Origin: a virus
DNA length: 20,334 nt
Direction: 5' to 3' (one strand)
IMG/VR virus record: IMGVR_UViG_3300011013_000122
Span: 1 to 20,334 of that record
Shown: positions 514-2,944 of the stretch, piece by piece
How the letters are laid out: each line of letters begins with the position of its first letter
How positions within the stretch are numbered: the stretch's first letter is position 1
The notes under the pieces: generated by a model
Told to the model about the DNA's origin: nothing
The model's database searches: none
Seen by the model: the letters and a program-made list of their open reading frames with translations, nothing else
Translations under genes and position numbers: made by a program

Positions 514-542
514 AGACTAGCACATAACAAAAAATAAAGCAA
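514..542 (-). promoter_or_regulatory. weak candidate leftward promoter
   Basis: Read on the minus strand, TTGCTT (537-542) and TAGTCT (514-519) are separated by 17 nt, and TGC directly before the -10 gives an extended -10 (TGn). It would place a start about 40 nt upstream of the leftward operon. The match is far poorer than the three rightward promoters, so this call is tentative. Confidence 0.3.
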
Positions 543-561
543 GTAGTAATACAAGTAAACC

Positions 562-570
562 TGTGGATAA
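562..570 (-). promoter_or_regulatory. DnaA box match (TTATCCACA)
   Basis: The minus strand reads TTATCCACA, the consensus bacterial DnaA box, inside the AT-rich gap between the leftward operon and the rightward promoter at 602. I saw no cluster of further boxes nearby. My rough estimate from base composition is about 0.3 chance matches in a window this size, so a single site is suggestive only. It could mark a replication origin or a host DnaA-controlled switch. The rest of 470-600 is A/T-rich with no other clear signal. Confidence 0.35.
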
Positions 571-601
571 CTTTTTAATAAATGAGTACATAGATTAAGA
601 C

Positions 602-630
602 TTGACAAATGATTAATAATATGATATAAT
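602..630 (+). promoter_or_regulatory. consensus sigma70 promoter P1 (drives the ncRNA region)
   Basis: TTGACA at 602-607 and TATAAT at 625-630 with a 17-nt spacer match the sigma70 consensus exactly. Transcription should start near 637, one base before an 8-bp hairpin and about 490 nt ahead of the first gene. It shares the block ACTTGACAAA with the promoters at 1083 and 2951. Confidence 0.9.
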
Positions 631-636
631 AGAAGT

Positions 637-1063
637 GTTGGTTATGAATATAACCAAGTTCGTTACAAAGTTGATATATCGAGTGGAATAAGGCAAACCC
701 ACTATAATCTAAATGGCCCTTATTATCTAGGGCTAGTCTTCTAAAACTTCTTATCGTTGAAATGTAGTAGAGGTAAGGAATAAGTTAATGTTAAGATGCA
801 AATGCGAAAGCTGGGAAAATGACTATACGACTTGTCACCCAGCCATCTGATTTGCACCGTAGCATTAGAGATAGATATTATGTACTTAAAGGATACGATA
901 ATAGGCTATCATAGATATGTTGACCACATAACTGTGGTATTATATCACTTACTAGTGATATTGACCACATACTTTGTTACTCTAGAGTATCTGGCGTTAA
1001 TACTCTACTAACACACATAATGCCTTACTGATATGGTATCAGAAGGTAAAAGTCGTGTTACCT
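637..1063 (+). ncRNA. large structured noncoding RNA (novel candidate)
   Basis: About 430 nt with no credible gene follow P1. Helices found by hand, in order: 638-645/650-657 (8 bp, loop GAAT); closing helix 662-671/971-980 (9 bp plus one U-U mismatch); 682-686/699-703, whose loop 687-693 is complementary to 718-724 (pseudoknot); a rod 786-790/863-867, 797-803/850-856, 810-815/838-843, 820-823/834-837 with two 6-by-6 internal loops; 870-874/906-910 with 876-881/898-903; 923-928/933-938 or the alternative 933-938/964-969; 943-949/954-960; 983-990/1000-1007; 1028-1033/1037-1042; 1044-1049/1058-1063. The rod loop 826-833 is complementary over 8 nt to the last hairpin loop 1050-1057. Large phage RNAs such as ROOL and GOLLD have this general style, but I cannot assign a family. 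The 3' end is uncertain: no U-run follows 1063, so transcription may continue into the terminase genes. Confidence 0.7.
920..971 (+). repeat. 11-nt direct repeat TTGACCACATA inside the ncRNA
   Basis: TTGACCACATA occurs at 920-930 and again at 961-971. Each copy contains ACCACA, which can pair with the single UGUGGU at 933-938. The two pairings exclude each other: a small hairpin with loop UAAC, or an extended hairpin that stacks on helix 943-949/954-960. Confidence 0.75.
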
Positions 1064-1082
1064 AATTTAATATACAAAACAC

Positions 1083-1111
1083 TTGACAAACTATTTTATT
1101 TATGTTATAAT
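1083..1111 (+). promoter_or_regulatory. consensus sigma70 promoter P2 (terminase operon)
   Basis: TTGACA at 1083-1088 and TATAAT at 1106-1111, spacer 17 nt, are an exact consensus. The expected start near A1118 leaves a leader of only about 11 nt before the small terminase ATG, with no Shine-Dalgarno sequence. Confidence 0.9.
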
Positions 1112-1128: not shown

Positions 1129-1521
1129 ATGGCACAAGGAAAAGAGTGGAAAAAAGAACAAAGAGAAGAGATTATCCAAAGTTTAAGACCTTATTTAGAA
1201 ATGGGTTTTTCAAGGAATAAAGCTTGTCAGTTTATAGGATTACCACCACAGACCTTATCTAACTGGGTTCAAATAGATAAAGCTCTTGGGATGAAGCTAA
1301 CAGGATGGGAAAATGTTATTACTACCATTGCCTTAAATAATATTGGTGATACAATTAGAGCTGAAGCTGAAAATGAACTTGATACTAAAAAAGAAAATTC
1401 TTGGAAGTGGGGAGAAAGGAAACTAAAAGAGTTATCACCTAAACAAGAAACAGAGATAACAAACCCAGATGGAAACCTTAAAACTATTATCATAAATAAA
1501 AATGTCACAAGCGACGATTAA
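1129..1521 (+). CDS. terS: putative terminase small subunit (DNA-binding), 130 aa
   Basis: Its place and size fit a phage small terminase, which recognises the packaging site and delivers phage DNA to the large subunit. Residues about 10-50 read as a helix-turn-helix domain: basic KEWKKEQREEII, a helix, then FSRNKACQFIGLPPQTLSNW, where the SRNKACQFIGL and PQTLSNW segments form the two recognition helices. The rest is helical and charged, possibly for oligomerisation, with a short disordered tail. The gene starts about 11 nt after P2's predicted start, and its 3' end overlaps the large terminase start by 20 nt, a sign of coupled translation. Small terminases diverge strongly, so the name rests on the HTH plus its position directly before terL. 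A transcriptional regulator is the alternative. Confidence 0.72.
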   Translation: MAQGKEWKKEQREEIIQSLRPYLEMGFSRNKACQFIGLPPQTLSNWVQIDKALGMKLTGWENVITTIALNNIGDTIRAEAENELDTKKENSWKWGERKLKELSPKQETEITNPDGNLKTIIINKNVTSDD

Positions 1522-2944
1522 CTTACTCCCCAAACAGACTGAAGCTTTTAACTATTGGGAGTCTGAAGAAGTAACAGAACTAGGATATGGCGGAGCAGCT
1601 GGTGGTGGAAAGACCAGACTTGGTTGTTATTTGGCTATAACTATTGCCGAAATGTATCCTGGAAGTAGGGGTGTAATAGGTAGAAAGGAATTAAAGACCC
1701 TTAGATTGACAACCCTGACCTCGTTATTTGAGATATTTGGAGAATTGGGCTATAAAAAGGACTTAGATTACAAATATGACTCACAACAAGGTGTAATAAA
1801 GTTCACTAATGGCTCTCAGATCTTAATTTTGGACACTGCTTATAGTCCACAAGACCCAGAATATACTCGTTTTGGTTCTTTAGAGTTAACTTGGGCCTGG
1901 ATAGATGAGTCAAATGAAACCCCAGAGAAGGCTATTTCAATATTAAAAACCAGAGTAGGACGTAAAAATCATATAAATGGTGTTAAGGTTAAGTCTTTTT
2001 GGCTAGAAACTTTCAACCCTAACAAAGGACACGTCCATAGAAACTACTATAAGCCTTGGAAAGATAATAAATTACCTAAGTATCGTAAATTTATAAGAGC
2101 TTTACCTGGAGATAATCCTTATTTACCTAAAGAATATATAAATAATTTACAAAGAGCAGATAGAGTTACAAGAGAAAGACTACTATATGGTAACTTTGAT
2201 TTTGATGATGACCCACAAAAGATAATGCTTTATGAGGCTATTACTGATTTACCTTTTAATGTTTTAGAGGTATTTCCACAAAAGAGAGATATAAAAACTA
2301 TAATAGCAGATATAGCTAGATTTGGTGGAGATAAAATAGTTATTTCTTTATGGGATAATCTTACTTTATATGGACTTTATGTTTACACCTATCAGGGAAT
2401 AGACCAGACAATTAAGAAACTAAAAGAGATCTCCAGAGAACAAAATATCGGATTTAAGAATATTTTAGTAGATGAAGGTGGTGTTGGTGGTGGTGTAGTT
2501 GATGGTATGAGGGGAATTAAGGGTTTTAATGGTAATAGTTCACCACTACAAGTATGGGATTATGTTAAAAACAGACAAGTAAGTGCCAATTACCAGAACT
2601 TTAGAAGTCAGTGTCTATTCAAATTAGCCGAAATGGTTAATGAAAGGAAGATTAGAATTAACATAACATTGTTTGAAACTAATATTGAGGGTTATAACAA
2701 AGAGAAAGCAATATCAGATTTGATGGAAGAACTAGATCAGATAAAACAAACAGACAACTCAATGGACGGAAAGAAAGCAATAATACCAAAATCTAAAATT
2801 AAAGAACAGTTAGGTAGAAGTCCTGATTTTGCTGATGTAATGATGATGAGAATGCATTATGAATTAGTAGAATTACCCTTTGATTATAAGCCTGATTTGA
2901 TATTTAGAGGAAAAGACCCAGAGGAGATAAACGAAGCAATATAA
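1502..2944 (+). CDS. terL: terminase large subunit (packaging ATPase and nuclease)
   Basis: This is the motor that pumps DNA into the prohead and cuts the concatemer. The N-terminal ATPase has a Walker A loop GGAAGGGKT at residues 30-38 and a Walker B strand TWAWIDE at 130-136 with the catalytic Asp-Glu. The C-terminal RNase H-like nuclease shows its acidic residues in order: D270 (IADIARFGGD), D324 (ILVDEGG) and D442 or D445 (SPDFADVMM). The 480-aa length is normal, and the protein looks intact. The start ATG at 1502 lies 20 nt inside terS with no Shine-Dalgarno sequence, so it is probably reached by translational coupling. The stop is followed within 7 nt by the next promoter, without a visible terminator. 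Confidence 0.95.
   Translation: MSQATINLLPKQTEAFNYWESEEVTELGYGGAAGGGKTRLGCYLAITIAEMYPGSRGVIGRKELKTLRLTTLTSLFEIFGELGYKKDLDYKYDSQQGVIKFTNGSQILILDTAYSPQDPEYTRFGSLELTWAWIDESNETPEKAISILKTRVGRKNHINGVKVKSFWLETFNPNKGHVHRNYYKPWKDNKLPKYRKFIRALPGDNPYLPKEYINNLQRADRVTRERLLYGNFDFDDDPQKIMLYEAITDLPFNVLEVFPQKRDIKTIIADIARFGGDKIVISLWDNLTLYGLYVYTYQGIDQTIKKLKEISREQNIGFKNILVDEGGVGGGVVDGMRGIKGFNGNSSPLQVWDYVKNRQVSANYQNFRSQCLFKLAEMVNERKIRINITLFETNIEGYNKEKAISDLMEELDQIKQTDNSMDGKKAIIPKSKIKEQLGRSPDFADVMMMRMHYELVELPFDYKPDLIFRGKDPEEINEAI

Follow-up and report, generated by a model that had tools for sequence, protein, structure and literature searches.

A new family of large structured RNA in phages and Patescibacteria, with covarying pairing between a rod loop and a 3' strand

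Introduction

The locus considered here raises the question of what stands in a long gene-free stretch that opens at a perfect promoter and ends at the terminase genes of a virus. In the window (the whole stretch of DNA analysed, a 20.3 kb IMG/VR virus record), the region between a minus-strand ORF ending at 311 and the terminase small subunit gene (terS) at 1129 is free of genes. A preliminary description, made from the sequence alone, had proposed that an ornate structured RNA lies there, that it resembles in style the large phage RNAs ROOL and GOLLD, and that its family may be new. Two of its starting points were found just as described, namely the perfect promoter at 602-630 (12/12 hexamer positions, a 17-nt spacer and TG before the -10) and the stretch after it, where 631-1128 of the window holds no ORF of at least 60 aa.

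Results

Locus, promoters and predicted fold

The features of the locus are presented in Table 1. The promoter at 602-630 should drive the structured RNA, and the one at 1083-1111 would give terS its own start and separate it from the RNA. Three 12/12 extended -10 promoters lie on the plus strand (at 602, 1083 and 2951, ahead of the RNA, of terS and of the gene after the terminase large subunit gene, terL), and three such perfect promoters are unusual for one 20 kb window. The 3' end of the RNA is approximate because no clear intrinsic terminator was found 3' of it in the window. The terS ORF has no PHROG match of its own, and relatives of its product were found at 55-57% in only two contigs (L013 and L014). 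The window TerL is 70-75% identical to that of phages with unrelated TerS proteins, and L013 and L014 did not appear in the TerL search, which makes the two terminase genes (1129-2944) look mosaic.

Table 1. Features of the locus in the window, with the basis of each assignment.
Feature	Position	Strand	Basis or remark
Extended -10 sigma-70 promoter	602-630	+	TTGACA-N17-TATAAT, 12/12 hexamers, TG before -10
Structured noncoding RNA	637-1063	+	Ends approximate; z -5.4; model R1 (655-985) finds homologues, 30-66 bits
5' hairpin	638-657	+	Fold; absent from L014 homologue
Closing helix P1, 5' strand	662-680	+	Pairs with 973-980 and 914-924; inverted repeat I5, fold
P2 hairpin	682-703	+	Fold; loop 687-698 AAUAAGGCAAAC
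P3 hairpin	714-735	+	Fold, probability 0.96; variable in relatives
P4 hairpin	748-779	+	Fold, probability 0.4; weakly supported
Conserved rod	785-868	+	Rod alignment; helices broken by loops UAAG/CGUA, UGCGAAA/CNUCU and AAAA bulge
Rod apical-loop strand ACGACUU	827-833	+	Pairs with 1050-1056
P6 hairpin	870-910	+	Fold
P7 hairpin	933-969	+	Fold
Closing helix P1, 3' strand	973-980	+	Inverted repeat I5
P8 hairpin	983-1007	+	Fold
3' hairpin	1021-1048	+	Fold; precedes conserved AGGUAAAAG motif (1044-1052)
3' element AAGUCGU	1050-1056	+	Partner of rod apical loop; covariation tests
Second extended -10 promoter	1083-1111	+	12/12; just before terS
terS	1129-1521	+	ORF; inferred from position and relatives in L013, L014
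terL	1502-2944	+	phrog_979, E 7.7e-28

The fold of 637-1063 reaches -124.0 kcal/mol, compared with -92.4 ± 5.9 kcal/mol for 100 dinucleotide shuffles (z -5.36), and 0/100 shuffles were as stable, which bears out the claim that the pairing exceeds chance. The minimum-energy fold also has more than ten helices, in line with the number found by hand; the closing helix 662-671/971-980 is present with 9 of 10 positions complementary, and so is the rod 786-815/838-867, whose pairing is interrupted by an AAAA bulge and by two 6-by-6 internal loops, UUAAGA/CCGUAG and GCGAAA/CAUCUG. Around P7, alternative pairings arise from the direct repeat D2, UUGACCACAUA, at 920-930 and 961-971. However, the antisense strand folds equally well (z -6.4), and because of this the folding of the single sequence settled neither the strand nor the RNA nature, so that homologues were needed to decide. 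These settled both, the rod model scoring 87 bits on the plus strand versus 33 on the minus strand.

Search for known RNA families

When the window was compared with all 4227 Rfam 15 families by cmscan, matches at E up to 10 were chance matches only, and at the gathering threshold neither the window nor its TerL relatives gave any match. For the homologue loci described below, the sole match at the gathering threshold was a tRNA in L227, and for nine chromosomal copies at E<=0.5 it was the LOOT RNA (RF03000), which lies beside the new RNA; on the new RNA itself RF03000 has no match. The Rfam models of ROOL, GOLLD and phi29 pRNA matched nothing in the window, the homologue loci or the nine chromosomal copies. 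An origin from tRNA or tmRNA was rejected after search; the window has no tRNA gene, and the 13 homologue loci have one (that of L227). The literature searched, with incomplete coverage, does not describe this RNA. The suggestion that the family might be new has thus held, and we regard the RNA as almost certainly a real new family.

Relatives in phages and in Patescibacteria

Direct sequence searches with the RNA found nothing in phages, in plasmids or, by blastn, in the TerL relatives, which at 70-75% identity lack the RNA, and a portal-based search gave no relatives either. Of the early patterns, GGAATAAGGCAAACCC produced chance hits only (L062 included) and was discarded, and TTGACCACATAACTGTGG produced no hits. 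A covariance model of window 655-985 alone with its own predicted fold (R1) matched L014 at 2643-2441 on the minus strand (29.8 bits, E 4.5e-7), in the gap upstream of a terS whose product is related to that of the window at 57%, and behind a TATAAT box. In L014 the internal loops of the rod are identical to those of the window and its helices are swapped, UGCAAAU/AUUUGCA becoming UACAUAU/AUAUGUA, GCUGGG/CCCAGC becoming ACAUGG/CCGUGU and UGAC/GUCA becoming ACGAC/GUCGU.

The pattern AAGNTNNNNNTGNGAAANNNNGGAAAA, written from the window and L014 sequences, matched 50 IMG/VR stretches, and R1 confirmed eleven of these together with L220 (the L014 contig again) at E values of 1e-6 to 1e-18 (1e-10 to 1e-18 for L203, L216, L228, L182 and others). 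With L183, added by the later rod covariance model R3, there are 13 IMG/VR contigs besides the window, some of them near-identical (L183/L227; L188/L195/L209). The R3 score of window 784-870 (87.1 bits) is that of a sequence in the training set of the model; independently, R1 finds the other members. L233-L235, taken from a second rod pattern, are not members, as they lie inside coding sequence and the fold is missing under R3, and a rod search of named plasmid and phage collections gave no credible match.

Among 84,980 bacterial and archaeal species, a strict pattern had three hits, all in Patescibacteria (Parcubacteria, Paceibacterota and Nomurabacteria) and all confirmed by the window-only model R1. 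Scans with R3 found the RNA in 11/397 genomes of one order, 5/384 of its class and 2/380 of the phylum, and the chromosomal copies in Patescibacteria number 13 in all. Given where the RNA occurs, the host of the window's virus would presumably be a patescibacterium too.

Covariation of the rod

In 14 rods with 29 pairs, 95.8% of the cells are paired and both partners have changed in 18/29 pairs; 0/500 shuffles reached any of the covariation measures, and sliding the partner by 1-3 columns lowers the pairing to 33-43%. Ten held-out copies likewise gave 95.8% paired, with 20 pairs showing double changes and 0/500 shuffles as good, although this alignment was fitted to the model, so that its slide control (35-48%) is the fairer comparison. 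The unpaired parts UAAG/CGUA, UGCGAAA and the AAAA bulge are conserved as well, a conservation that the search pattern partly imposed in the first 14 sequences and did not impose in the later, model-found copies. Homologues that vary without compensatory changes had been named as what would speak against the structure; those found show strong compensation in the rod, and the alignments indicate that the rod shape itself is kept by evolution.

When P1 was sought in every member with permissive pairing rules, the outcome seldom exceeded that of shuffles, and we claim this helix for the window and for a small number of copies; its 5' strand has a model match in L014, where the RNA seems to begin close to the closing helix. 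To the eye, relatives appear to have P2-like hairpins with a GG-rich loop ending near AAAC.

Pairing of the apical loop with the 3' strand

The structure first described is supported, but its most informative feature had been missed, namely a non-nested pairing of the rod apical loop with a strand near the 3' end. Downstream of the rod and after a hairpin, the members carry AGGUAAAAG or a near variant (14/14 sequences of the motif-based test). With the motif position fixed regardless of pairing, a loop's own 3' strand beats those of the others with a permutation p of about 1e-5, the limit of the test; an unrestricted partner search in 330 nt was weaker, but its swap test still came out positive (p 5e-4). 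The five pairs adjoining the rod helix are present in 23/23 sequences and six pairs in 134/138 cells, where four of the 23 (L243, L247, L248 and L249) have 3' strands that lack AGGUAAAAG and were located by complementarity, and are thus not independent. There are 17 distinct sequence pairs, and 0/20,000 reshufflings reached the observed pairing. Examples are ACGACUU/AAGUCGU in the window, GCAACCU/AGGUUGC in L228, CCGGGAUCU/AGAUCCCGG in L231 and GAUAGACACU/AGUGUCUAUC in L250, and a further copy, L263, has GUGACU/AGUCAC. Since this pairing is non-nested with the closing helix, it is either a tertiary or an intermolecular contact. In ROOL and GOLLD, covariation had first revealed comparable loop-strand pairs, which cryo-EM later showed to join different chains (PMC12286853).

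Genomic settings

A homologue search between a consensus promoter and terS had been advised. Homologues do exist, but this placement is only one of several contexts. Among the phage copies, those of the window and L216 come ahead of terS and terL, and that of L014 is next to terS on the opposite strand; others stand in the gap between terL and portal (L182, L188, L195, L209, L210), before the portal gene (L218), near lysis genes (L228) or elsewhere (L183/L227, L203, L226). The setting of the chromosomal copies is uniform: in 13/13, the gene of a large serine recombinase (520-590 aa) follows 0.2-1.0 kb downstream on the same strand. These recombinases fall into several divergent groups, and Pfam Resolvase/Recombinase domains were found in 5/5 tested. 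A protein of 215-295 aa with no assigned function usually precedes the chromosomal RNA; three of these proteins tested had no Pfam match, and there is no detectable similarity among the copies. In 7/13 genomes (G026, G027, G956, G752, G581, G538 and G554) a LOOT RNA is found upstream of the new RNA, at a distance of 0.5-1.8 kb and for the most part on the opposite strand, and the 13 genomes carry 0-6 LOOT copies each.

Several side observations were made at these loci. In L258 and L260 the 3' part of the recombinase gene merges with the beginning of a gene for a YchF-like GTPase, which suggests that the latter is an integration target of this recombinase group. A long near-perfect hairpin, followed by a terminator-like hairpin with a T run, stands 50-200 nt before the RNA in L182, L188, L203, L210, L218, L226, L227 and L228; this element may be an attenuator or a small RNA in its own right. 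Upstream of terS in L010, a TerL relative, there is a gene-free structured stretch of about 590 nt (515-1100, plus strand; z -6.3, reverse -2.0) with a TATAAT just before it and no Rfam, phage, R1 or R3 match, which may be another large RNA with no relation to the first. In other TerL relatives, stretches ahead of terS (L005 1-120, L007 1-160, L008 1-80 and L012 3350-3445) resemble odd or interrupted tRNAs, with T-arm and acceptor ends, and neither ARAGORN nor Rfam calls a tRNA in them.

Discussion

The conserved rod with its internal loops, the covarying helices and the covarying non-nested pairing are observed directly in the alignments, and the identity of the RNA is very secure; what it does can be approached by inference. 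The reading we hold to be rather probable is that 637-1063 is a noncoding RNA that stands on its own and folds via the loop-strand contact, and that it belongs to a new family of phages and of serine-recombinase elements of Patescibacteria. As the RNA has its own strong promoter and terS has another, it would be made as a separate transcript, most likely a trans-acting architectural RNA, and action in trans in such a role is what we consider probable. The loop-strand pairing would either lock the fold of the monomer or join neighbouring copies into an oligomer, as in ROOL and GOLLD; by this analogy a homo-oligomer may form, although we place its chances below even. The folded RNA would then act while the element moves. 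Mobility is what the carriers have in common, and the simplest role to fit all of them would lie in excision, packaging or late infection.

The main rival is that the RNA is a cis-acting leader which controls the downstream gene (terS, portal or recombinase), with the loop and the 3' strand as a switch of read-through or translation. The constant place of the chromosomal copies ahead of a same-strand recombinase agrees with this, as do the RNAs of the window and L216 ahead of terS and those of L182, L188, L210 and L218 ahead of the portal gene, and nothing conserved in the RNA stands between the paired 3' strand and the gene. However, in the window the second perfect promoter stands between the RNA and terS, and the RNA of L014 points away from terS and is therefore not tied to one downstream gene. 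The downstream gene also varies by lineage, and L183, L203, L226 and L228 have no such gene adjacent, so we judge a leader to be unlikely. Less likely still is a packaging RNA similar to phi29 pRNA, which would form a ring at the portal by loop-strand pairing in phages and in phage-packaged elements. Most phage copies do adjoin terminase or portal genes (window, L014, L182, the L188 group, L210, L216, L218), L252 has a terS-like HTH protein nearby, and phi29 pRNA likewise oligomerises through complementary loops. Against this, no Rfam family matches, pRNA included, some copies have lysis or early genes for neighbours, and no terL or capsid gene was seen in the stretches of up to 20 kb inspected around the chromosomal copies, some of whose neighbours were searched against families.

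That the locus is a DNA element such as an attachment site, pac or cos, with inverted repeats that mimic RNA helices, is strongly disfavoured and, in our estimate, very improbable. The gene-free stretch beside terminase genes, in which both strands fold well, agrees with it, but the model scores are strand-specific (87 vs 33 bits), G-U pairs are kept on one strand, the single-stranded loops are conserved, and the covariation of loop and 3' strand is non-nested. Chance folding of AT-rich intergenic DNA is refuted by covariation and has a negligible probability; long phage intergenic regions can show low z-scores for other reasons, as the one in L022 does from terminator-like hairpins, but compensatory changes were found in both sets of sequences (14 and 10), with 0/500 shuffles in each.

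To return to the free-standing RNA, the likeness in style to ROOL and GOLLD that had been noted is supported; this is a large ornate phage RNA, and it matches neither family. ROOL is also a large structured RNA of phages and prophages with no assigned function, and it forms a homo-oligomeric cage. It has a covarying loop-strand pairing (J6/8 with L8) that is an intermolecular bridge (PMC12286853). In GOLLD, a large phage RNA too, L20 kisses J13/15; this contact was detected through covariation and proved to link chains (PMC12286853). The new RNA differs from both in the lack of an Rfam match, and hence of homology to ROOL at model level, and in its conserved core; it is about half the length of GOLLD and occurs in other hosts. 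ROOL is often, but not always, near tRNA islands in phages, whereas the new RNA has no nearby tRNA genes in the scanned loci except one in L227, and it is found with serine recombinases in Patescibacteria. The phi29 pRNA, also assembling through complementary loops, is about 120-174 nt with a different fold. LOOT, a structured RNA as well, is a separate family of 121 positions and is absent from the window and the phage contigs scanned. The RNA described here constitutes a new family among the large RNAs of mobile elements; it resembles ROOL and GOLLD in style and fails the tests of their Rfam models.

Conclusions

Large ornate phage RNAs are few; a new family with no catalogued relative adds one, and it sits in phages of a phylum whose biology is mostly unseen. 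Its loop-strand contact is sharp and testable, as two short strands change freely but always together. A broader and quite speculative picture, to which we give a low probability, is that of an RNA machine of Patescibacteria mobile elements, which would multimerise via this contact, be part of a conserved mobility module that also includes a large serine recombinase and LOOT, and be carried by phages beside their packaging genes. The chromosomal order is fixed, often with LOOT and the unassigned protein, then the RNA and then the serine recombinase, and it places LOOT, a known RNA with no assigned role, in the setting of integrative mobile elements.
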